Assembly (NCBI GenBank): GCA_903833275.1
Contig: CAILEP010000035.1
Span: forward strand, 1-41,601
Source of the DNA: an uncultured Bdellovibrionales bacterium
GTDB lineage: Bacteria; Bdellovibrionota; Bdellovibrionia; Bdellovibrionales; UBA1609
Direction: 5' to 3'
Length of the DNA stretch: 41,601 nucleotides
This document shows, piece after piece, positions 4,914 through 22,748 of the stretch. The translations under genes and the position numbers were made by a program. Below the pieces are notes generated by a model that was given only the letters and a program-made list of their open reading frames with translations, made no database searches and was not told the origin of the DNA. Position 1 is the stretch's first letter; each line of letters opens with the position of its first letter.

Positions 4914-7900
4914 TTAATTCGAAATAACCTGCAGTATATCGTCAGCATAAAGGGTCAGCGCCTTGCGATTGATGCCGGCGATTTCGAAGAGCTCAGTTCG
5001 CGAACGGGGCTGGCTCTCGCAAATGGCAATAAGGGCTTTGTCGGTCATAATTCGAAAAGCCGGTAGGTTCTTTCTTTTGGCCTGGCTGAGGCGCCATTGG
5101 CGTAGAGAATCAAAAGTCTTGCTCGAATACTCTGCGGGGGCATTTGACTGCTTTCGGCGCCGAGCCGCTTTCTTGTTCGCACGTTTGGGTTTTTTCAGGC
5201 GACTGGCGAGCGATCTCGGCGCGCGAGGGGCTGAAATAATCTCGAGTTTCTCAATGTCGCGCTCAGAAATCTGATCAATGTTGGTGGCGAGCGAAAGTTT
5301 TCGATAGGTGATATTCTTGCCACCCTTTTCAAATGTAGCCTCTTGAGTTTCAAGATAGCCGCATTGCTCGAGTAGCGTGACAAGCTTTTCAAAATCGTTA
5401 CGTTCGACTGAGATCTTTGAATCAAGCAATTGCTGAAAGAGCCGACCGGCAGCGAGAGACCCATCTTGATCGAGGGCTCTTAGCATTTGCATTGCAATGT
5501 TCTGCTCGTCTTGGTCAAGGCCGCGCTTTTGCATCAGCGATTCGACTTGAGTTGGATTACAAACATCGCATAGCCCGCAAGGTTTGCCAGAATCGTTTTG
5601 ATCACCAAAGTGCGATACTAGGTAGACCATGCGGCACTTGCCCGAGGTGGTAAAATTCGCAATCTGCTTAAGCTGCTTTCGCTTTTGTTCGCGTTGCAAT
5701 TGGTAGGTAGCGGGCCACGAGGCCTGGCCTAGAGTCATATTCTCTTCGGGGTCGATAGCAACCCCGCGATGAACCCAGAGTTGTTCGAGGGCGCGATCAA
5801 AAGTTTCGTGATCCATTTGTCGACGTAGTTTTTTCTGCACGTAATCTTTGCCGACCTGTTGCACATCGAGTTGGTCAAAAATGGACTGAAGCTTTGCTTC
5901 ATCGGGGTAATTCATGTCGAAGAAGTACTCGTGGGTTTTTTGATCGGCAAACGACTGAAGCAAATAGGCCTGGCTCGGCAAACCGTCTCGGCCGGCGCGC
6001 CCAATTTCTTGGTAATACCCTTCGACGCTGCCTGGTAAGGCGGCATGAATGACAGTGCGAATATTGGGCTTGTCGATACCCATTCCGAATGCGACTGTGG
6101 CGACAATGACGTCGAGTTCGTCAGCCAAAAATTTAGTTTGAACTTTGTCGCGTGCAGCCGGGCTCATGCCGGCATGGTAAGACCCAGCTCGCAACGAACT
6201 ATCGAGCACCTCAGTTAAAGCCTCGGCTTTTTTTCTGGTCGGAGCATATACAATCGCGGGCAAACGGTTTTGTCGTTTTAAAATTGACAACACCGCATCG
6301 GCACGATCACCGGGCGAGAGCTCGGCGACTTCAATGGCGATATTGGTACGGCGAAAACCTTGAATGACCCGCGTTTCAGATTTTAGATTCAATTGTTTGC
6401 AAATATCATCTTGCACGGCGGGCGTTGCCGTTGCGGTCAATGCAATAACCGGCGCCGGGCGCAGCTCTTTGAGGCGCTCGCCGAGAATGCGATAGTCGGG
6501 CCTGAAGTCATGGCCCCATTGAGAAATACAATGCGCTTCATCGATCGCAATTAGAGTCGGTGGGCGTCGGCCTAAAAATTCAACAAAGCCCGGTACTGAC
6601 AATCTTTCAGGAGCAATAAATAAAAAATCGAGTTCATCGGCCAAATATCGCTGGCAGACGGCTCGCGAGTCTTCGCGGCTTCGCCCCGAGTGAATGCGTT
6701 CAGCCGCAAAGCCCAATGACTTAAGTTTTACGACTTGGTCTTCGATCAGGGCCAATAGCGGGCTGACGACAAGGGTTGTCCCGCCGCGAGCCACCCCGGG
6801 TACTTGATAGCAAATAGATTTGCCTGCACCGGTCGGCATTACGAGCAGCACGTCTTTGCCTTCGGTCACTTGCGCACACACGTTCTCTTGGCTCGGTCGA
6901 AAAGCCGCGTGACCAAAACGATCTTTTAAAAGTTGACCAAGCTGAGCGACCGAAGTCTGTGCACGGGGAGTTCTTGAGGGCCCAGGGCTACCACCAGCTT
7001 GCCCAAAATTGGGCGAGGCCCCGTTGGCTGGCCCCGCGGTCTGCATGGAGGCACCGTAGGGCGCCCGCGGCGATTGCGCGATTTCAGAAATACGAGCCGA
7101 CACTTCGGTTTCAAGCTCGGTCATAAAATCTTCAAGTGTATTTTTGTTGTCTTGGATCTCGCCCAGCTTTTTCTCCCAGCGAGCGGTGAGCTCGGGGCTT
7201 TTGACGCTTTCGTGCACAGTCGCGATGACTTTGTAACCAAGGGCCGTGGCGATCAGTGATTTTTCTTTTCGCTCGATATATTTTCGAGTCAGCAAAGTCT
7301 CGATAATATTCGCGCGCGTGGCCGGAGTCCCAAGGCCCGAGCCGCGCATTAGGTCTGCGAGCTCGCGATCTTCAAGGTTTCGACCGGCGGTCTCCATACC
7401 AGTCAAAAGTGTCGCATCAGTCAGATGCGGCGGGGGTTCTGTGTTTTTTTGAACTGGCTTAAGATTCACTACTTCCACCGAAACACCGGGCGCGAGCCCG
7501 CTCGGCAGATCGGGGTCTTGTGAGCTGGCTCTTGTTTTGAGATCCAAAGCCTTCCAGCCGATATTCTCAACAACAGTGCCTTGGGTTTTGAATAGATCGA
7601 GTTCGCCAAGTTCGGTAATAATTGTCGTCACTCGTGTTACATAATCATGCTGCCAGGCCATCAAAAGACGTCGGCAAATAAGGTCGTAAACTTTTCGTTC
7701 GTCTGGGCTCAAATGGGTGCGCGAAGCTTCAGTTTTAGTCGGGATTATCGCATGGTGATCTGACACCTTTTCGTCGTCGACAAAGCGACTGCCGAGCGGC
7801 GCAAGGCCCGTGGTCTCAGCGAGTTGGGCATCATAAGGCCCGCGAATATTTTTTACGATTTCAGGTAAAGTCTCAGCCACCGATTGAGATAAGTGGCGAC

Positions 7901-8888
7901 TGTCGGTTCGCGGGTAGCTGATCACTTTGTGGCGTTCGTAGAGATTTTGCGCGAGAGCTAGTGTTTGCGCGGCCGAGAACCCAAAAAGCCGATTGCAATG
8001 TCTTTGCAGCTCGGTGAGATCGTAAAGAAAAGGAGCTGCCTGTTTAACTGTTTTGCCGTCAAGTGAAAGAATTTTAGCGGTCTCTTTCTGCATGCGCGCA
8101 ATCAGCTCGTCTACTTTGGCCAAATCTGGCGGCAGTCGTTTTTCTTTGGCGGTTATGGGGTTTGCCGTTTCATTTTTTTCGCCGATATAGCCACCTTCAA
8201 ATGGCCCGGTGGTGGATTGAAATTTGGCTTCGATAACGTAATAGTTTTCGGGGACGAAATTTTGAATCTTAAGGTCGCGATCGACCACCATCGCGAGCGT
8301 CGGGGTTTGCACGCGCCCGACAAAAAGTTGGTCTTGAGTTGTAATGGCGTAGGCCCGCGAAAGGTTCATGCCGTAAAGCCAATCGGCGCGGCTGCGCGCG
8401 CGGGCCGCATCGGCCAACGAGTCATAGGCCGCCGACGGTTTCAAAGCGCGTAGACCGGCTTTGATCGCGTCTGGGGTCAACGATGATATCCACAAGCGCT
8501 TTACGGGTTTTTTGCATTTCGCCAATTCGTAGATATAGCGAAAGATAAGTTCACCTTCACGACCCGCATCTGTTGCGCAGATCACTTCGCTGCAATCGGC
8601 GAGAATTTTTCGAACAATTTCAAATTGCGGTTTGGTTTTTTCGACGGCGACCAAGGGCCACTTGGTCGGCAGCATCGGAAGATGGTTGAAGCTCCAGCTC
8701 TTCCAAACCGAATTTATCTGATGAGGCTCGGGGAGTGTGACCAAATGCCCAATGGCCCACGTTACGGTGTAACCATTGCCGCGAAAACAGCCCTCACCCT
8801 GTTGATTTGCGCCTACTGAGCGCGCAATGTCTCGGGCCACCGACGGCTTTTCAGCGACGATAACTATATTTTCAATCTCGGTTTGAAT
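4914..8888 (-). CDS. topB-recQ: DNA topoisomerase III - RecQ helicase fusion protein
   Basis: One frame encodes a full type IA topoisomerase III joined to a RecQ helicase. Counting from the GTG at 8840, TOPRIM has DAGREGE at 91-97 and the catalytic tyrosine is Y309 (ISYPRTDSR). A Gly/Pro/Ala-rich linker lies at about 590-630. RecQ follows with Walker A PTGAGKS at 669-675, DEAH at 767-770, a four-cysteine zinc site (CRMVYL...CGLCDVC) and a C-terminal HRDC domain. The start is odd: the GTG at 8840 would remove the first TOPRIM strand, yet codons upstream continue as IVIVAEKPSVAR, the expected topB N-terminus, back to a stop at 8898-8900. No ATG, GTG or TTG lies there; AUU at 8888, six bases after AAGGG, is the best start (1324 residues). 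The fusion would unite strand separation and single-strand passage, as RecQ and Top3 do as partners in recombination-intermediate dissolution. Confidence 0.93.
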   Translation of the reverse strand: MQTEIENIVIVAEKPSVARDIARSVGANQQGEGCFRGNGYTVTWAIGHLVTLPEPHQINSVWKSWSFNHLPMLPTKWPLVAVEKTKPQFEIVRKILADCSEVICATDAGREGELIFRYIYELAKCKKPVKRLWISSLTPDAIKAGLRALKPSAAYDSLADAARARSRADWLYGMNLSRAYAITTQDQLFVGRVQTPTLAMVVDRDLKIQNFVPENYYVIEAKFQSTTGPFEGGYIGEKNETANPITAKEKRLPPDLAKVDELIARMQKETAKILSLDGKTVKQAAPFLYDLTELQRHCNRLFGFSAAQTLALAQNLYERHKVISYPRTDSRHLSQSVAETLPEIVKNIRGPYDAQLAETTGLAPLGSRFVDDEKVSDHHAIIPTKTEASRTHLSPDERKVYDLICRRLLMAWQHDYVTRVTTIITELGELDLFKTQGTVVENIGWKALDLKTRASSQDPDLPSGLAPGVSVEVVNLKPVQKNTEPPPHLTDATLLTGMETAGRNLEDRELADLMRGSGLGTPATRANIIETLLTRKYIERKEKSLIATALGYKVIATVHESVKSPELTARWEKKLGEIQDNKNTLEDFMTELETEVSARISEIAQSPRAPYGASMQTAGPANGASPNFGQAGGSPGPSRTPRAQTSVAQLGQLLKDRFGHAAFRPSQENVCAQVTEGKDVLLVMPTGAGKSICYQVPGVARGGTTLVVSPLLALIEDQVVKLKSLGFAAERIHSGRSREDSRAVCQRYLADELDFLFIAPERLSVPGFVEFLGRRPPTLIAIDEAHCISQWGHDFRPDYRILGERLKELRPAPVIALTATATPAVQDDICKQLNLKSETRVIQGFRRTNIAIEVAELSPGDRADAVLSILKRQNRLPAIVYAPTRKKAEALTEVLDSSLRAGSYHAGMSPAARDKVQTKFLADELDVIVATVAFGMGIDKPNIRTVIHAALPGSVEGYYQEIGRAGRDGLPSQAYLLQSFADQKTHEYFFDMNYPDEAKLQSIFDQLDVQQVGKDYVQKKLRRQMDHETFDRALEQLWVHRGVAIDPEENMTLGQASWPATYQLQREQKRKQLKQIANFTTSGKCRMVYLVSHFGDQNDSGKPCGLCDVCNPTQVESLMQKRGLDQDEQNIAMQMLRALDQDGSLAAGRLFQQLLDSKISVERNDFEKLVTLLEQCGYLETQEATFEKGGKNITYRKLSLATNIDQISERDIEKLEIISAPRAPRSLASRLKKPKRANKKAARRRKQSNAPAEYSSKTFDSLRQWRLSQAKRKNLPAFRIMTDKALIAICESQPRSRTELFEIAGINRKALTLYADDILQVISN

Positions 8889-13554: not shown

Positions 13555-15150
13555 TTACGTGTGATACATGCGGTCTTCAAACGCGGCGAGTGCTGCTTTT
13601 GCGCCTTCGCCCATGGCGATTATGATTTGCTTATAAGGGGTTGTGGTCACGTCGCCAGCCGCATAGATCCCTTTTGCTGAAGTATGGCCTTTGCCATCAA
13701 CCACAACTTCGCCAAACTTGGTGAGCTCGACGACGTTTTTCAAGAAGTGACTATTTGGCACGAGGCCAATTTGAATAAAGACACCATCGAGTACAAGCTT
13801 CTTCGTTTGTTCACTTTGGCGATCAAGATATTCGACAGCTTGAACTTTTTGGCCATCGCCGACGATTCTGTCAGTACGGGCGTTGGTGATAATCGACACA
13901 TTTGAAAGTGATTTGAGTTTATCTACTAAGATCTTATCGGCCTTCAACTGCTCGTTATATTCAACGAGTACAACTTCGCCGACGATACCAGCTAGGTCAA
14001 TTGCCGCTTCGACACCCGAATTGCCGCCACCGACAACCGCAATCTTTTTGCCCTTATAGAACGGGCCGTCGCAGTGCGGGCAGAAGGCGACCCCGCGCCC
14101 GAGATATTCTTTTTCGCCCGGCACGCCAAGCTCGCGCCATTTGGCACCGGTCGCGACGATAATTGAGTCGGCGGTTAAAAATTCTCCGCTTTCAAGTTCG
14201 ATCTTGTGAGCTTTCACGGCAATTTTCTGTGGGTCGTCGCTCGTGCCTTTTTCGATCAGCTTTACTTTTCGATTCTCAAAAACGTGAATGGGGTAACTGG
14301 CGACGTGTTCGTTGAGTTGTGCCGCCAGCTGAGGGCCTTCAGTGTATTTTACCGAAATGAGATTTTCAATCCCCTTGGTGTCTTGCACTTGACCACCAAA
14401 TTTTTCGGCGAGCATCGCCGTTTTCAATCCTTTGCGGACACTATAGATGGCGGCGGATGCGCCAGCGGGGCCTCCGCCTAAGACGACAACATCGAACTGG
14501 CCTAGGTTGGCATCAACCAAGGCGGATTCACCTGAGCTCACTCCAAAGGTCACTTCGAGTTTTGAGATAAGATCGAGCAAGGTAATACGCCCTGAGTGAA
14601 TCATCTTATTATTGACCGCAATACTGGGTACGCCCTGAATGCCGAGCGCGGCAATCTCTTCTGGGGTGTAGCCACCATCAATCATCTCGTGCCGAAAATT
14701 GCCGTGCAGTAAAGCCATCTGATTAAGGGCTTGCACCACGTCGGGGCAGTTTTCGCAGGTCAGAGAGATATAAGTTTTAATATCGATGGGCCCCTTGATT
14801 CGTTTAATTCTTTTTATCAACTGCGCATCTGGCATTTTGCCTTTGCCGTCAGCATTTAAGATAGCCAAAACCAAAGAGCTGAATTCGTGGCCGCCGGGTA
14901 TACCTTTGAAAGTAATTCCGGTGGCGGCACCTTTATAATTAATATGAAACTGCGGCATCAGTGACTGCCGGCCATCAGCGCGCGCGCCTATGTGCGCATT
15001 GATTTTTGGGCTAGTGGACGCCACGTCACTGAGAAGTTCAATCAATTGCGATTGATCTTCGTGCGAGGTGGGTTCGTAAACGAGCTCCACCAGATTTTCA
15101 AGCGGAGCAAACACTGTCTTTAATTGTTCTTTTAATTCAGAGTCTAACAT
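13555..15150 (-). CDS. ahpF: Alkyl hydroperoxide reductase subunit F
   Basis: 531 residues, close to the usual AhpF length of about 520. The N-terminal tandem thioredoxin-like module (1-200) carries the disulfide C132-x-x-C135 (TCENCP). The FAD loop GGGPAG is at 225-230, the active-site pair C357-x-x-C360 in AFCPHCDG and the NAD(P)H loop GGGNSG at 374-379. The enzyme passes electrons from NADH through FAD and two disulfides to AhpC. It lies 73 bases downstream of ahpC on the same strand, with a hairpin between them, so it is probably expressed at a lower level from the ahpC promoter. Confidence 0.96.
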
Positions 15151-15183
15151 TAGGCACCTCTAGATTGTGGGCCACATATTCGC

Positions 15184-15203
15184 CGCTGGCTTTGCGGCCA
15201 GCG
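15184..15203 (-). promoter_or_regulatory. Hairpin between ahpC and ahpF
   Basis: CGCTGGC at 15184-15190 pairs with GCCAGCG at 15197-15203 around a 6-base loop. No T-run follows on the minus strand, so it is more likely an mRNA-stabilising or partly attenuating stem that gives more AhpC than AhpF. Confidence 0.4.
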
Positions 15204-15223
15204 ACGCAAACAAAAAGCTTTCG

Positions 15224-15790
15224 TTAGATTTTGCCGACGAGATTTAAACCAGGCTTCAGGGTCTTTTCGCCTGGGCGCCATTTTGCCGGGCAGACTTCGC
15301 CAGGGTGGCTCGCCACAAAGAGAGCGGCTTGAGTTTTTCTGACCAGCTCGTCAGCGTTGCGACCAACAGCATTGTCTTGAACTTCAGCCATTTTAATTTT
15401 GCCATCTGGGTCTACTAAGAATGTGCCGCGGTAAGCGAGACCTTCTTCTTCAATGTAAACTCCGAAAGCGCGCGACAAGTAGCCAGTGGGGTCAGCGAGC
15501 ATTGGGTATTTTATTTTTTTAATAGTTTCAGAAGCATCGTGCCAAGCTTTGTGTACGAAATGGGTATCGGTGCTCACTGAATAGACTTCGACTCCCATTT
15601 CTTTAAGCGCGCTATACTTATCGGCCAAATCGCCCAGTTCGGTGGGGCAGACAAAGGTGAAGTCGGCTGGGTAAAAGAAAAAGATCGACCATTTGCCTTT
15701 TAGGTCAGCATTGGTAACCGTTTTAAAAGCGTCACCGTGGTAAGCCTGCACCTTGAAGTCGGGCACTTTGGTGTTGATGAGTGTATTCAT
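15224..15790 (-). CDS. ahpC: Alkyl hydroperoxide reductase AhpC (2-Cys peroxiredoxin)
   Basis: 188 residues, the normal length for AhpC. The peroxidatic cysteine is C48 in FTFVCPTEL and the resolving cysteine is C167 in GEVCPAKW, so it is a typical 2-Cys peroxiredoxin that reduces hydrogen peroxide and organic peroxides. An AAGGAG ribosome binding site lies just before the ATG at 15790. Divergent oxyR starts 183 bases away and an OxyR-like half-site pair lies between them, so peroxide induction is expected. Confidence 0.97.
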   Translation of the reverse strand: MNTLINTKVPDFKVQAYHGDAFKTVTNADLKGKWSIFFFYPADFTFVCPTELGDLADKYSALKEMGVEVYSVSTDTHFVHKAWHDASETIKKIKYPMLADPTGYLSRAFGVYIEEEGLAYRGTFLVDPDGKIKMAEVQDNAVGRNADELVRKTQAALFVASHPGEVCPAKWRPGEKTLKPGLNLVGKI

Positions 15791-15896
15791 AAAATTCTCC
15801 TTTTGGTTAATAAATGAGCTTAAAGCCCACGGGTTATATATTGTTATATTACGGCCAAAACGCGTATATGGTAAAATCGATAAAATAATTGATTTG

Positions 15897-15911
15897 ATAG
15901 AGAAACTCTAT
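15897..15911. promoter_or_regulatory. OxyR-type binding motif between ahpC and oxyR
   Basis: ATAG, seven bases, CTAT is an exact match to one half of the classical OxyR site (ATAG-N7-CTAT-N7-ATAG-N7-CTAT). The next unit at 15919-15922 reads ATAC, three of four matches; the outer units are poor. The location between divergent ahpC and oxyR is what the regulation model predicts. Confidence 0.5.
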
Positions 15912-15973
15912 ATAATGAATACCACTGAAAGCTTGGCTAGGGCAGGCTTTGCCAGACGATAGAGGGGGCAGGA

Positions 15974-16945
15974 GTGGTCTCAAAATTGAACTTTTCATTG
16001 ACGCAGCTCGAGTATGTGATGGCCGTGCATAAGTATGGGCACTTTGCCAGGGCGGCCGAGTCTTGCAATGTGACCCAGCCGACCTTGAGCATGCAAATTC
16101 AGAAACTCGAAGAGGACCTCGGGACTGTCCTTTTTGATCGGTCGAAAAAACCTATTTTATTGACTGAGGCGGGCGCAAAATTAGTCGCGCAGTTTCAGAA
16201 TGTCCTTTTTGAGGCAAAAAAAATCGACGGAATTATTCAGTCAAGTCAGGCGACCACGTTGAAGGGGATACTCAACATGGGCGTGATACCGACGATTGCT
16301 CCGTATATTCTACCAAAACTATTGCCGGTGCTTGAAAAACGCTTTCCGCAAATAGAGCTGCAAATCTCTGAAATGCAAACTCACCGAATTGTTGAGGCGC
16401 TCGAAAATGATGAATTGGATGTGGGCCTTTTAGCGACCCCCCTAAAGCTAGCCCAGATATTTGAGCTCCCGCTGTTTTACGAGCCCTTTTTTGTACTCTG
16501 TAAGAAAGGCCACGAGTTGGCGCACCATAAAAAAATCAAATACGCCGAACTTAAATATGGCGACATTTGGCTGCTGACCGAAGGGCACTGTTTGCGCAAT
16601 CAAATTCTCGATGTTTGTTCGGCTCGCCCAGATAAGCTGTCAAAGGCTGGTCGGCAAAAATATAAATTTGAAAGTGGCAGCCTTGAGACATTGAAGCTTT
16701 TGGTTGATTCTTATGGTGGTTATACTTTGCTGCCAATGCTGGCGACCGACTCGATCGGTGTAAATACCCAGCTTTTGCAATTTGAGAGGCCAATACCCGC
16801 GCGTGAGGTGGGCTTGGTGTATCGCCGAAAGCATCATAAGTCTGAACTTATCGAGTCGCTCGGGGACGCCATTCTCGCATCTATACCTGATGAGTTAAGA
16901 AAGATCCGTCAAAAAGATTTGGATGTATTGTCGGTTGAGGCTTGA
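15974..16945 (+). CDS. oxyR: OxyR, peroxide-sensing LysR-type regulator
   Basis: 323 residues with a GTG start at 15974 behind a G-rich ribosome binding site. An N-terminal LysR winged helix (10-68: FARAAESCNVTQPTLSMQIQ) precedes the regulatory domain. The two redox cysteines of OxyR are present nine residues apart, C206 and C215, in TEGHCLRNQILDVC, matching C199/C208 of the Escherichia coli protein. Oxidation to a disulfide should turn it into an activator. It is divergent from ahpC and ahpF, the expected targets. Its last 37 bases overlap the 3' end of the opposing epimerase-like gene. Confidence 0.93.
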   Translation: MVSKLNFSLTQLEYVMAVHKYGHFARAAESCNVTQPTLSMQIQKLEEDLGTVLFDRSKKPILLTEAGAKLVAQFQNVLFEAKKIDGIIQSSQATTLKGILNMGVIPTIAPYILPKLLPVLEKRFPQIELQISEMQTHRIVEALENDELDVGLLATPLKLAQIFELPLFYEPFFVLCKKGHELAHHKKIKYAELKYGDIWLLTEGHCLRNQILDVCSARPDKLSKAGRQKYKFESGSLETLKLLVDSYGGYTLLPMLATDSIGVNTQLLQFERPIPAREVGLVYRRKHHKSELIESLGDAILASIPDELRKIRQKDLDVLSVEA

Positions 16946-17685: not shown

Positions 17686-17888
17686 AAAAAGAAAAAAGCC
17701 TCGCGGGGGGACGCGAGGCTTTCTTGGGGGAGGGTAATTGCTCCTTAGGGGGGTAAGGATTGTGCAACCACTTGACTATCACTAGAGCAAATTGCGGGCC
17801 TGCCCAGAGCTCTTTAATTTCAGGTGGCTGACAAATTTACCAATAGTGCCAATTCTGGGCGCCCAAACTGGCGCCAGCTGTCACTTTC
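17686..17888 (-). ncRNA. Putative structured small RNA, copy 2
   Basis: Homologous to 8964-9168 over its whole length. The minus-strand order is the same: outer block (GGCGCC-type palindromes at 17858-17875 replacing the copy-1 inverted repeat), TTGCTCTAGTG-TAG, hairpin TCCTTA-CCCCCC-TAAGGA (17742-17759) and a terminator with loop UCCCCC. The first base pair of the C-loop hairpin is T-A here and A-T in copy 1. It lies between the MFS gene and the epimerase-like gene, so it could also be the 3' UTR of the biosynthetic operon, released or read separately. Confidence 0.5.
17695..17722 (-). terminator. Terminator of element copy 2, end of the biosynthetic operon
   Basis: AAAGCCTCGCG at 17695-17705 pairs with CGCGAGGCTTT at 17712-17722; on the minus strand it is followed by TTTTTTCTTTTT. 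It would stop transcripts of the element and any read-through from the MFS gene. Confidence 0.75.
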
Positions 17889-17894
17889 AATTGG

Positions 17895-19004
17895 TCACGC
17901 TTTAGTTTGTCTCAAAATGAGACAGTGTGAGTTGAGAGCGTTGTTGTTAAGTTTGAGCTTCGCGAGCGCTTGTTGATTCGTACGAGGGGTCGCAAGAAAT
18001 GTCCCTAATAGCATACAGCCGAAACCGATTGAGCCGCTTAGGTATATCATATTGCCGTATTCGCGGCACAGAAATACTGTTGCAAAAGAGCCTACGCCAA
18101 CCATGACTTCTTTCGGAAACAGGTAGCCTTCGTCATTAGCAAGTTTGTCATATCGGCTAAGGGCACATTCGCCCAGAGTCAAAAGTACAATCCACAAAAT
18201 GGCCGAGGGCAACGATTCAACTGATAAAATCTCAGGTAATGCGAGTAAGCCCATAGCAGAGAGAGCGAAAAGCAGAGTCCAGCGATAGTTTATTGAGGCG
18301 ACAAACTTCAAGATGCGATGTTGAAAAAAAATAACCCCAAGGCTGTTGAGCACGATCATCGACCCAAACCAAAACGGAAGATTTCCGGATTTGTGCAAAA
18401 GATATTGCGGCAAAATTGTGAAAACGCCTGTTAGTTTAATTCCAGTGGCGATGCCGATGAGGGCCCAGCCGATGAGGGGTAAGGCCTTCAAGGGTTTTTG
18501 CTTCTTCTCTAAATTTTCGATCGCTTTAAATGATGTTAGGCTATCCCAATCTATTTTGAATGAGAAATAGGCCGTTGCCAAAAGCGCAAGAGCCGAAATT
18601 GCAAGCAGCATATTTTTATTTTCAATAAACATTAATAGTAGCCCCGAGATCAGACTGCCCACGTTAAGCGAAACTTTATTGTCGGCTGCGCCTTTCAGTG
18701 ACTGCGCATTGACGAATTTGCAAATATATCCTGAAACAGCGACGCTCAATGCGAATAGCCCAACCGTCAGGATATTGATCGAAACGAACATCCCCATCAA
18801 AGCGAGGACACCAATAACCAGCGATGTTCGCATTCCGACAGAAGTGCCAAAGTAGAGAAAGACCGGCGCGGCAAGCAGCAGTGCGCGATAGCCTACTGCA
18901 AGCGTTAGGTGAGTTTGGGTGTCGGTCCAAATATTGACCTTTGCAAGTAGTAAGAAGAGCACCGTCGCTGTTAAACATCGAATTAGGACCATTGGGTTGT
19001 TCAT
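17895..19004 (-). CDS. Membrane transporter, MFS-like, probable exporter
   Basis: Starts at the ATG of an ATGA overlap with the ATP-grasp stop (19001-19004); an ATG six bases upstream is the alternative. The 369-residue product is very hydrophobic, with about 10-12 membrane segments and a basic central loop (ENLEKKQKPLKAL, about residue 165-177) between two halves, as in the major facilitator superfamily. Specific MFS motifs are weak, so the family call is tentative. Coupling to an oxygenase and an ATP-grasp ligase suggests that it exports their product and may give self-protection. The palindrome at 17907-17923 lies inside its last codons. Confidence 0.7.
   Translation of the reverse strand: MNNPMVLIRCLTATVLFLLLAKVNIWTDTQTHLTLAVGYRALLLAAPVFLYFGTSVGMRTSLVIGVLALMGMFVSINILTVGLFALSVAVSGYICKFVNAQSLKGAADNKVSLNVGSLISGLLLMFIENKNMLLAISALALLATAYFSFKIDWDSLTSFKAIENLEKKQKPLKALPLIGWALIGIATGIKLTGVFTILPQYLLHKSGNLPFWFGSMIVLNSLGVIFFQHRILKFVASINYRWTLLFALSAMGLLALPEILSVESLPSAILWIVLLTLGECALSRYDKLANDEGYLFPKEVMVGVGSFATVFLCREYGNMIYLSGSIGFGCMLLGTFLATPRTNQQALAKLKLNNNALNSHCLILRQTKA
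17907..17923. promoter_or_regulatory. GTCTCA-N3-TGAGAC palindrome, site 2
   Basis: TGTCTCA, AAA, TGAGACA: perfect 7-base arms, inside the 3' end of the transporter gene and 19 bases upstream (minus strand) of structured element copy 2. It shares motif and relative position with the site at 9232-9248. Confidence 0.45.
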
Positions 19005-20254
19005 GGGCAAACCTCGATATTTTTAAGAACAATCTCATTAGCCAGTGCGAGGTTGTTTTTGAGTGTAAGGGCATCCTTGTGGCGAAGTGCAACGTAAGCT
19101 AAAAAGTCCGCATTGTCCCGGGCATCGCGGCGCACGATTGAATTGACCTGTTTTAGAATTGAAAAGCGAAAGTTTTCGCTTCCGAAAATTTCAGTAAATT
19201 GATCGCGGATGGCGATTTCGTCGATATGTGCGATCGTTCCGTCAATTGAGCTGATGACTCCTCGTACTCCAGAAAAGAAGACTCTTTTGAGTGCGGAGGC
19301 AGTTGGCTTTTTGCCGGCACACACTTCGAGCCACGTGGCCCAAGGGTTGAAGTTTTCGAACGACCAGGCCGCAAGGTCCCATATCCACATGCCCGCGGGT
19401 CTTCGATTAGGTTCAACGCTCGCTAGACGGCTGTCGGTAAGATTAAAAAATTCGTGATGAAAGGCACCACCGCGTGAACCAAGATTTGTTAGTAGAGGGC
19501 GAAGTGTGTTTTGCATTGTAAGCTCTAGGGCCTCGTCTAGAGGGGCTGGCACAATGTGTTGATATTCTGCTCGGTAAGCACCCTCTGTCGTGTATTTCTC
19601 TGTGACCCAATACGACCCGTTGACCCCATCAAAGCTAAACTCGTTGCCTGAGCTCAGGTATTCTTCGCATATGACACCATTTTTTAAATAGGGCGCATTC
19701 TCTTCAAGCCAAAGCAGCAGGTCGTTTCGGCTAGAAATTTTCATGCAACCACGACTGTTGCCTTCTGAAGCGGGCTTGATGAAAAATGTCCCGGTTCTTT
19801 CAAAGAAGGCTAAAAGCTCGTCGGCGTCATGTATTTTTTTAAAAAATGGCTTTCGATAAACAGATGGGTCCATCGGAATTTTCGCCTCGAGTTCTCGAAA
19901 GAGGTGTTTGTCGAGCATAGCCTTTGCGGTTCGATCGTCGTCACCAAACAGCCCAAAGGCCTTAGCTGTGTGTGCGGCGCCTATCACGCCCTTGTCTGAA
20001 AAGGGTAAGCAGCCAATCAGATTTAGGTTTTCGCTCTTGAGATAAACACGAAGGGGCCCTTCTAAGTCTGATCTTTCGGGCTGCGCGTCGAAGCAGAAAC
20101 GAGTTACGCTCAAGTCTTGTTTGTCTACGTGTTCCTTTATTAGGAGAATCTCGGCGCCAAATTTTTCAAGCGCCATGTTTTTAATTTTTTCGACATCATA
20201 GATTCGAGAATTATTGTAGCCAAAAACGGCGATAACATTAGTCATTTTTTTCAT
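19001..20254 (-). CDS. ATP-grasp ligase (amino-acid ligase type)
   Basis: 417 residues. An N-terminal pre-ATP-grasp domain (1-110) is followed by the ATP-grasp fold: K160 in FFIKPASEGNSRG for phosphate binding, the adenine-side acidic strand ICEEYLSSGNEFSFDG (195-210) and metal ligands E268 (FHHEFF) and N283 (SVEPNRRPAG). This pattern matches the carboxylate-amine ligases that make dipeptides or amino-acid conjugates through acyl phosphates (BacD/CarnS-like). The substrate cannot be read from sequence. It lies 21 bases after the oxygenase gene and overlaps the transporter start by ATGA, so the three are one operon. Confidence 0.85.
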   Translation of the reverse strand: MKKMTNVIAVFGYNNSRIYDVEKIKNMALEKFGAEILLIKEHVDKQDLSVTRFCFDAQPERSDLEGPLRVYLKSENLNLIGCLPFSDKGVIGAAHTAKAFGLFGDDDRTAKAMLDKHLFRELEAKIPMDPSVYRKPFFKKIHDADELLAFFERTGTFFIKPASEGNSRGCMKISSRNDLLLWLEENAPYLKNGVICEEYLSSGNEFSFDGVNGSYWVTEKYTTEGAYRAEYQHIVPAPLDEALELTMQNTLRPLLTNLGSRGGAFHHEFFNLTDSRLASVEPNRRPAGMWIWDLAAWSFENFNPWATWLEVCAGKKPTASALKRVFFSGVRGVISSIDGTIAHIDEIAIRDQFTEIFGSENFRFSILKQVNSIVRRDARDNADFLAYVALRHKDALTLKNNLALANEIVLKNIEVCP

Positions 20255-20275
20255 AGTTCACCATCTGTAGAATTA

Positions 20276-21232
20276 TTATTTAATACCTTTGCTACGGAAA
20301 AGAATTCGCGACGACTCGCCTTCATAGAGCATGACTGGGTTGAGTTGTGAGCGGCCGTGCAGAATTTTAAAGTTCGCTAAAAAAGCCACGGTGCCAGTGG
20401 AAGGGTTTGAGGCCAGGGGTTTTAATGTTTTGAGCCCGACACGCATCTTTTCGATTATTGCCGTGACGGCAGGGTCTTCCGATCTCATGCGTGGGCCAAC
20501 AGTGTTGTCGATTCGAAAATCGAGGCGGATCGCCAAACCTTCGACATCATCCCGACGCAAGATTGGCTTCTTCACCTGAATGCCTTGGCCCTCAACATTG
20601 GTGCCCGAGAAAAAGGTGGCTTCAGAAGAGGCGAGTTGGCCCAATTCTTCGTCAGTCAGACAACTGACGACATCTTTTAAAAGCCAAAACCATGTTGGTG
20701 TCCGACTTATGTCTTTGCAAACAGTGAGGCTCATTATGTTGATGTCGCGATCTTCATATAGATCGTCGCTATGTGGGCGAATAATGCCAAGGCCTTTGCC
20801 CCAGTCAACGGCCCCGCCAGCTTGTTCTTTTGGAAATAGTTCTTTGTGCTCCTCATAAGGGTACTTGATATCGATGAGGCCAACGATCTGGGCCATGACC
20901 TCATGTACGAGCAGCGCCAGGTTTTTATCGGGTTGGCTAAACATATATTCGAGTAGTACGGCTGCAATACGTTTTTCGGCTTGACCAATATTGCGCAAGG
21001 TTTCTAGGTGCGAAGGCTTGATAAATTCGAGGATGAGTGACTGAAGCGAGTAAAAACCGATTTGAGAGTTAAAATTCTCGTGACTATGCGCCCACCACGA
21101 ATCGATCTTCGCGCCCAGATAAGACATGTCGAGGCGCTCGACCGTCTCTTTGTTGAATTCGGTACGTAATATACCGCCAATTATTTCGTGGTGGTTCATC
21201 GCGCGGGCGTCGTTCCAAAGTTCGTTTCTCAT
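20276..21232 (-). CDS. Fe(II)/2-oxoglutarate-dependent oxygenase (clavaminate-synthase-like)
   Basis: The ATG at 21232 has AAGGAG six bases upstream; the frame is open to 21289 without support. The 318-residue product has the iron-binding facial triad H154-x-D156 (RPHSDD) and H292 (ILHGRSQ), and the arginine near residue 309 (ESSRILFRS) that binds 2-oxoglutarate. The RPHSDD-YEDRDINIMSL context and spacing recall the amino-acid hydroxylases AsnO/VioC and clavaminate synthase in the TauD superfamily. It would hydroxylate or desaturate a free amino acid or its derivative. It is the first gene of the three-gene unit, and its product would be handed to the ATP-grasp ligase. Confidence 0.85.
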   Translation of the reverse strand: MRNELWNDARAMNHHEIIGGILRTEFNKETVERLDMSYLGAKIDSWWAHSHENFNSQIGFYSLQSLILEFIKPSHLETLRNIGQAEKRIAAVLLEYMFSQPDKNLALLVHEVMAQIVGLIDIKYPYEEHKELFPKEQAGGAVDWGKGLGIIRPHSDDLYEDRDINIMSLTVCKDISRTPTWFWLLKDVVSCLTDEELGQLASSEATFFSGTNVEGQGIQVKKPILRRDDVEGLAIRLDFRIDNTVGPRMRSEDPAVTAIIEKMRVGLKTLKPLASNPSTGTVAFLANFKILHGRSQLNPVMLYEGESSRILFRSKGIK

Positions 21233-21488: not shown

Positions 21489-22748
21489 ATGGCAGCCCAC
21501 AGTCTATTTTTTCAAATTAAAAAATATTTTCGCCGCTTTTGGCTCAGCGCCTTTTGTGGAGTGTTAGCGGGCACCTCTTCTTCGGTGTTTTTATTTATGC
21601 TGACGTGGTCGAAAGTTACGCGCGAGAGCCATCCGCAGATTATATGGGGTCTGCCGATTATCGGGCTTTTAATTGGCTGGGTTTATTTCAAATTTGGCCA
21701 CACCACCGGGCGCGGTAATAATCTTATTATTGACGAAATTCACGACCCCAAAAATGTTGTGCCGGTTCGCATGGCGCCGTTTATTTTGTTCGGGACTTTT
21801 TTGACCAATCTATTTGGCGGGTCGGCGGGGCGTGAAGGTGCGGCTGTTCAAATGGCGGCTTCACTATCGGACCAGTTGAGCCATGTTTTTAAAATCGATA
21901 GCGCCGAACGAAAGATGTTACTGGTCGCGAGTGCAGGCGCGGGCTTTGGTTCGGCGATTAGCACCCCGCTCGCGGGTGTTATTTTCGGTATGGAGATGAT
22001 TGGCATCGGTCGTTTGCGATTCGTGGCTTGGTTCGAATGCCTGGTGGCTTCATTCGTCGCTTTTTATGTAACTCGCTTCTTGGGTGCTCCGCACGCGCTA
22101 TTTCCGAAATTTGATGTGCCTGATTTTGACACGAAAACGCTCGCTTGTATTATTGTCGCCGGCATTTTTTTTGGATTGGCGAGTCGAGTCTTTGTTCACC
22201 TCACCCATCTCGTTGAACGCGCCAACGCTCGATTTATTAAATACCCGCCGCTTATGCCATTTGTGGCTGGTATCATAATCGTATTTTTGTACTGGCTTGA
22301 TGGTACTTATCGTTATTCAGGGTTGGGTCTTCAAGTGATTCAGGGGGCGTTGAGTGACCCGGCCTCATTGCGAGACCCCGCGCTCAAAGCCTTTTTTACC
22401 GCGCTGACGGTGGGTTCAGGGTTTAAGGGTGGTGAGTTTATTCCGCTCGTATATATTGGCACCACACTCGGCAGCGCGCTTGCGACTTTGTTGCCAATAT
22501 CGTTTAAGCTTCTCGCCGCTGTTGGCTTTGCTGCTGTTTTTGGTGCGGCAGCCAACACTCCGATTGCCTGCACGATAATGGCAATGGAAATTTTTGGTGC
22601 TTCTATTGGTATTTATGCTTTTGTTGGCTGCATTGTCGCGTATCTATGTTCAGGCCATAGAGGCATTTACAAAACGCAAAGAGTTGACGGAAAGAAAAGT
22701 GATCGCCTTAAATTTCGATTACCGATTGGGCCGCGAAAACTCAGGTGA
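21489..22748 (+). CDS. ClC family anion channel/antiporter, possibly fluoride type
   Basis: 419 residues, about 10-12 membrane helices. The gating glutamate is E116 in GGSAGREGAAVQM, where classic ClC proteins have GREGP. The N-terminal GSGIP selectivity motif is absent; GRGNNLIIDEIHDP stands in that place. The later signatures ISTPLAGVIFGMEM, GGEFIPL and ANTPIACTIMAMEIF are intact. A GREG followed by a non-proline together with loss of GSGIP is characteristic of the fluoride-exporting branch (EriC-F/CLC-F), so fluoride efflux is a reasonable guess. No fluoride riboswitch was seen upstream. Its 3' end overlaps the opposing symporter gene by 30 bases. Confidence 0.88.
   Translation: MAAHSLFFQIKKYFRRFWLSAFCGVLAGTSSSVFLFMLTWSKVTRESHPQIIWGLPIIGLLIGWVYFKFGHTTGRGNNLIIDEIHDPKNVVPVRMAPFILFGTFLTNLFGGSAGREGAAVQMAASLSDQLSHVFKIDSAERKMLLVASAGAGFGSAISTPLAGVIFGMEMIGIGRLRFVAWFECLVASFVAFYVTRFLGAPHALFPKFDVPDFDTKTLACIIVAGIFFGLASRVFVHLTHLVERANARFIKYPPLMPFVAGIIIVFLYWLDGTYRYSGLGLQVIQGALSDPASLRDPALKAFFTALTVGSGFKGGEFIPLVYIGTTLGSALATLLPISFKLLAAVGFAAVFGAAANTPIACTIMAMEIFGASIGIYAFVGCIVAYLCSGHRGIYKTQRVDGKKSDRLKFRLPIGPRKLR

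Follow-up and report, generated by a model that had tools for sequence, protein, structure and literature searches.

In bacilysin biosynthesis, BacABC turn prephenate into anticapsin. The modified amino acid is then capped by an L-amino-acid ligase, BacD, and the pathway has its own dedicated exporter, BacE (PMC3684760). The Hil operon of Pantoea and Pseudomonas (HilA-HilE) encodes dioxygenases together with a PF13535 ligase and an MFS transporter; by analogy with bacilysin, these have been proposed to produce a dipeptide antibiotic and carry it out of the cell (PMC3684760). The tabtoxin cluster likewise encodes a clavaminate-synthase-like enzyme (TblC), a D-Ala-D-Ala-ligase-like protein (TblF) and a multidrug-type transporter (TblR) (PMC3927611). 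Here we analyze a three-gene locus within a 41,601-nucleotide stretch of DNA from an uncultured Bdellovibrionales bacterium (CAILEP010000035.1, positions 1–41,601, hereafter the window), whose genes encode a predicted oxygenase (OXY), a predicted ATP-grasp ligase (LIG) and a probable membrane transporter (TR), all on the minus strand.

Operon Organization

The predicted Fe(II)/2-oxoglutarate (2OG) oxygenase gene OXY (20276–21232, minus strand, 318 aa) opens with an ATG at 21232, preceded by AAGGAG, and its stop codon ends at 20276. After an intergenic gap of 21 bp (20255–20275, minus strand), LIG (19001–20254, minus strand, 417 aa) begins with an ATG at 20254, and its TGA stop codon overlaps the start of TR (17895–19004, minus strand, 369 aa) in an ATGA junction (19001–19004, minus strand). 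The ATG of TR is at 19004, with a TTG at 19010 as an alternative start. The coordinates, strand, gap and overlap were all confirmed. Approximately 170 bp past the TR stop codon and ahead of the next minus-strand gene lies an intrinsic terminator (17692–17725, minus strand), in which a 14-pair stem is followed by a T run. Of the 13 terminator-like sites detected (shuffled sequences lead one to expect 5.1 ± 2.6), the hairpin at 17725–17692 was the strongest, in agreement with the strong terminator that had been placed at the end of the operon. Searching Rfam gave a sub-threshold match at this terminator only, and no riboswitch or other RNA element. Upstream of OXY, a ClC channel gene (21489–22748) points divergently. 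Given the tight junctions, the downstream terminator and the divergent upstream gene, we conclude that OXY, LIG and TR form one isolated transcription unit.

Two other regions of the window deserve mention. The gene at 4914–8840 (minus strand) encodes a 1308-aa Topo III-RecQ-like fusion, in which one chain contains both a type IA topoisomerase (Toprim and Topoisom_bac domains) and a RecQ-type helicase with DEAD, Helicase_C, RecQ zinc-binding and HRDC domains. At 13555–16945, peroxide-defense genes recognized by eye as AhpC- and AhpF-like adjoin a divergent gene for a LysR-domain regulator that, also by eye, is probably OxyR.

Distribution and Co-occurrence

When 369 genomes of the phylum were searched with profiles, OXY, LIG and TR each matched the same four genomes and no others: the window genome, G052, G285 (locus L015) and G271. 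These come from four families; the cassette is intact in three of them, and OXY is deleted in G271. Among 99 near relatives searched with one protein at a time, each protein matched the window genome and G052, with LIG alone giving additional weak, partial matches to other ATP-grasp proteins. G052 belongs to another family of the same order as the window genome, and its OXY, LIG and TR genes are arranged as in the window. When 84,980 species genomes were scanned on the basis of the OXY alignment, with two short peptide patterns only so that the yield is a lower bound, the complete set was found at L015 and at L016, the latter a gammaproteobacterial metagenome-assembled genome with OXY, LIG and TR intact. 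Gene order and strand are identical in L014, L015 and L016, with gaps of 5–18 bp between OXY and LIG. Identity to the window proteins (OXY/LIG/TR) drops in parallel for all three across the copies, from 63/54/58% in G052 through 56/53/50% to 36/36/32% in L016. Flanking genes differ in every copy, and no orthologous neighbors are common to them.

The same genes in the same order in distant genomes place this grouping far beyond chance. Because the neighbors differ in all copies and identity falls in parallel, the pattern is that of a self-sufficient cassette that has moved as a unit. The expectation that the three genes travel together, which a neighborhood survey could have overturned, was thus upheld both by the shared set of four among 369 genomes and by the distant copies, and we regard the carriage of this sparse but conserved three-gene pathway by a few unrelated bacteria as real. 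The GC content of the cassette equals that of its surroundings, and we therefore rejected recent acquisition as judged by base composition. A phage or defense origin was also rejected, with no PADLOC match and no PHROG match (apart from one at chance level, 0.069), and a tblastn search of PLSDB gave no match that would indicate plasmid carriage. A further OXY homolog occurs at L025:8263-8838 (G401), in a genome of the same taxonomic order as L016, and is cut by the contig end, beyond which any partners would lie.

A Predicted, Remotely Clavaminate-Synthase-Like Oxygenase

The iron ligands of OXY, H154-S-D156 and H292, are followed by R294 and R309, the last of which probably binds 2OG. H154, D156, H292, R294 and R309 are invariant in five homologs, two of them from Gammaproteobacteria (36–39% identity), so the intact HxD...H iron ligands of the original prediction stand. 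Sequence searches with OXY returned no Pfam or PDB match, no PHROG match and no meaningful NCBIfam match, and neither phmmer nor hmmsearch found anything between OXY and clavaminate-synthase-like relatives. TauD-family proteins were sought in the genome by HMM search, and none was found.

In a profile-profile comparison, the six-member OXY profile was aligned by hhalign with a clavaminate-synthase-family profile built from clavaminate synthase 1 (CAS; in agreement over its full length with PDB 1drt), AsnO, KDO1 and 6daw, giving a score of 43.5 (P 2.4e-5), compared with a maximum of 22 for 200 column shuffles, 16–17 for reversed profiles and 15–18 for the LIG or TR profiles. In this alignment, H154-S-D156 of OXY (HSDD) lies over H-T-E of CAS, and LHGR lies over HGR (H292-G-R on H-G-R). 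The double-stranded beta-helix fold expected of this group was sought in an AlphaFold2 model from a three-row alignment, which had a pLDDT of 47.5; structural comparison of this low-confidence model gave Fe/2OG enzymes or annotated relatives in 49 of the 50 best rows (Z ∼5), including CsiD, KDO1, OrfP, AsnO, CAS and VioC. We conclude that OXY is a predicted member of the clavaminate-synthase-like Fe(II)/2OG group, and a remote one, since single-sequence and HMM searches find nothing. The earlier description of OXY as AsnO/VioC-like is supported at the family level by the hhalign score (43.5 against at most 22) and by the structural rows. Known clavaminate-synthase-like members mostly oxidize free amino acids.

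A Predicted Amino-Acid Ligase and a Probable Transporter

All four LIG members match ATP-grasp_4, weakly, with the window protein below the Pfam cut-off, and all four tested give weak matches to D-Ala ligase C-terminal models; one matches the L-amino-acid-ligase C-terminal domain. Against solved structures, the best match of the LIG profile was the L-amino-acid ligase BL00235 (3vot, E 9e-9), closely followed by 4dim, annotated as a phosphoribosylglycinamide synthetase (1.2e-8), and then by VanA, Ddl and BacD (BacD at E 7e-5). Residues E268, E281, N283 and R285 are conserved in the four intact cassettes. From alignment with 3vot and knowledge of the ATP-grasp fold, Glu281, in the conserved motif VEPNRRPAG, appears to be equivalent to the second Glu that binds Mg in ATP-grasp enzymes, and E268, E281 and N283 are the probable Mg ligands. 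LIG falls far below every NCBIfam cut-off, that of the BacD model included. A housekeeping ligase (Ddl-, PurK- or CarB-like) was rejected on these scores and on the absence of LIG from 365 of the 369 phylum genomes; assignment to such an enzyme, which would have spoken against the original prediction, was thus not supported, and BL00235 is the best profile match. By homology, then, LIG is a predicted carboxylate-amine ligase of the L-amino-acid-ligase type, and dipeptide formation would be its likeliest chemistry.

Strong hydrophobicity and numerous predicted membrane helices characterize TR, for which no Pfam or NCBIfam family was found. An hhalign comparison with five E. coli MFS proteins, a small reference profile, did not rise above shuffles. 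The AlphaFold2 model (three-row alignment) had a pLDDT of 53.6. With this low-confidence model, the top Foldseek rows were nearly all MFS proteins (probability up to 1, E 8e-3), led by the exporters VMAT and NorA and with importers also listed; structural Z scores were 8–9, within the range usual for helical bundles, with the first ranks taken by two talin bundles that are unrelated. As a working guess, we treat TR as a polytopic, MFS-like protein and, from the predicted fold, a probable exporter. Besides TR, no self-resistance gene could be recognized.

Variant Loci

Two loci depart from the three-gene arrangement. In G271 (L020:3220-5705), OXY is reduced to about residues 3–37 and 284–318, and LIG and TR are full length, with Glu281 of LIG changed to Val. 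The OXY deletion and the Glu281Val substitution apparently fit decay of one unit; they come from a single genome locus and so could be assembly error. Directly beyond this cassette, L020:6035-9245 encodes another MFS transporter and a protein of 652 aa that begins with an ATP-grasp domain and whose C-terminal part, by eye, resembles an acetyltransferase; the two may constitute a second ligase-exporter pathway.

In the gammaproteobacterium G656 (L027:6590-8594), an OXY homolog with 39% identity and all catalytic residues kept forms an overlapping operon together with AzlC and AzlD (identified at E 4e-19 and 2e-6, respectively). OXY and AzlC overlap by one base and AzlC and AzlD by four, and no ligase or TR follows AzlD. 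In Bacillus subtilis, asparagine, histidine and 4-azaleucine are among the amino acids that AzlCD exports (PMC10882977). This pairing, the one instance found, is the best hint that the substrate of OXY is a free amino acid and that what OXY makes from it is destined for export. Given the partnership with AzlCD and no ligase, OXY may act before ligation, or without it, on a small amino acid.

Proposed Pathway and Alternatives

The operon structure, the co-occurrence and the families to which OXY and LIG belong, with their catalytic residues intact, were established here by computation; beyond these, we infer a free amino-acid substrate, an order of steps, a dipeptide product, a direction of export and a biological role. 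The reading that we favor, and consider somewhat better than an even bet, is a horizontally spread, three-step cassette in which OXY oxidizes an amino acid, LIG caps it as a dipeptide and TR exports it. OXY, with Fe(II), O2 and 2-oxoglutarate, would yield a hydroxylated, desaturated or otherwise oxidized free amino acid. LIG would then use ATP to couple this amino acid to a second one, giving a dipeptide or pseudodipeptide, which TR would carry out of the cell. Outside, the product's most likely role would be that of an antimetabolite, a signal being the less likely alternative. With a single modifying enzyme in the operon, we expect a simple oxidized amino acid, capped as a dipeptide.

Gene order does not fix reaction order, and L-amino-acid ligases often take plain amino acids, so ligation might come first, with LIG forming a dipeptide or amide and OXY oxidizing the conjugate before export. 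We consider this order unlikely, however, in view of the G656 homolog, which sits beside an amino-acid exporter with no ligase, and of the OXY relatives AsnO, VioC and KDO1, all of which act on free amino acids.

The joined substrates might also be something other than two alpha-amino acids: OXY could yield an oxidized organic acid, like the Fe/2OG enzyme of E-64 biosynthesis, or LIG could couple an acid and an amine such as a polyamine, with an amide exported. ATP-grasp_4 enzymes are diverse in substrate, and in the E-64 pathway an ATP-grasp enzyme acts on epoxysuccinate alongside the Fe/2OG oxygenase (PMC12568646). LIG, however, is nearest to amino-acid and D-Ala ligases and the AzlCD pairing indicates amino acids, which makes a product of this kind improbable. 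Salvage or detoxification, in which TR imports a compound that OXY and LIG modify for use or inactivation, draws on the direction of TR being only predicted, with no sequence family behind it, but is very unlikely, as exporters (VMAT, NorA) lead the Foldseek list of the weak TR model (importers being listed too), ligation at the cost of ATP is unusual in catabolism, and AzlCD, the partner in G656, is an exporter family.

The proposed pathway consists of three genes, without NRPS or PKS. Two of the three proteins match no profile library searched, and cluster finders built on known families would probably miss such a pathway. The cassette is small enough to be expressed whole in E. coli, so its product could be found directly. 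OXY supplies candidate amino-acid hydroxylases of a new family, and the loci provide a natural example of an oxygenase swapping its partner, from a ligase plus carrier to AzlCD. More tentatively, and with somewhat less than even confidence, we suggest that this is the smallest complete NRPS-independent pathway to an exported oxidized dipeptide, that it is built on a 2OG oxygenase branch and a transporter family that are both uncatalogued, and that it makes an undescribed antimetabolite or signal common to Bdellovibrio-like bacteria, which are likely predatory, and to Gammaproteobacteria with small genomes.

Comparison With Known Systems

At the level of the single enzyme, OXY shares with CAS1, AsnO, VioC and KDO1 a remote profile homology, aligned iron ligands and a C-terminal HGR...R motif, whereas it has HxD where they have HxE, and identity to them is below 20%. 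At the pathway level, bacilysin resembles the predicted pathway in ligase capping and a dedicated exporter, and the LIG profile matches BacD (7e-5), but that match is remote and LIG scores far below the NCBIfam BacD cut-off. Tabtoxin likewise unites an enzyme of the clavaminate-synthase-like type with a Ddl-like ligase and an exporter, whereas its cluster contains many more genes (the beta-lactam synthase gene tblS, tabA/B/D and others), none of which is present in this operon.

For the Hil operon, the same scheme of hydroxylation, ligation and export was proposed, with Fe/2OG amino-acid hydroxylation, an ATP-grasp ligase (HilD, PF13535) and an MFS transporter (HilE). Hil differs in its PF13640 (HilA) and PF10014 (HilB) dioxygenases, dehydrogenase, regulator and binding protein, whereas the cassette has only three genes, its one oxygenase belongs to a different lineage, and neither OXY nor TR matches a Pfam family. 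Tandem dioxygenases of the HilA/HilB type were not encountered, OXY being outside all Pfam families and no second oxygenase being present in the operon. This combination of protein families is in none of the libraries searched, and the oxygenase lineage and the transporter are themselves uncatalogued; the kind of pathway is already known. The original claim that no named system has exactly this set thus holds for the exact families but not for the logic, which Hil and tabtoxin already display.
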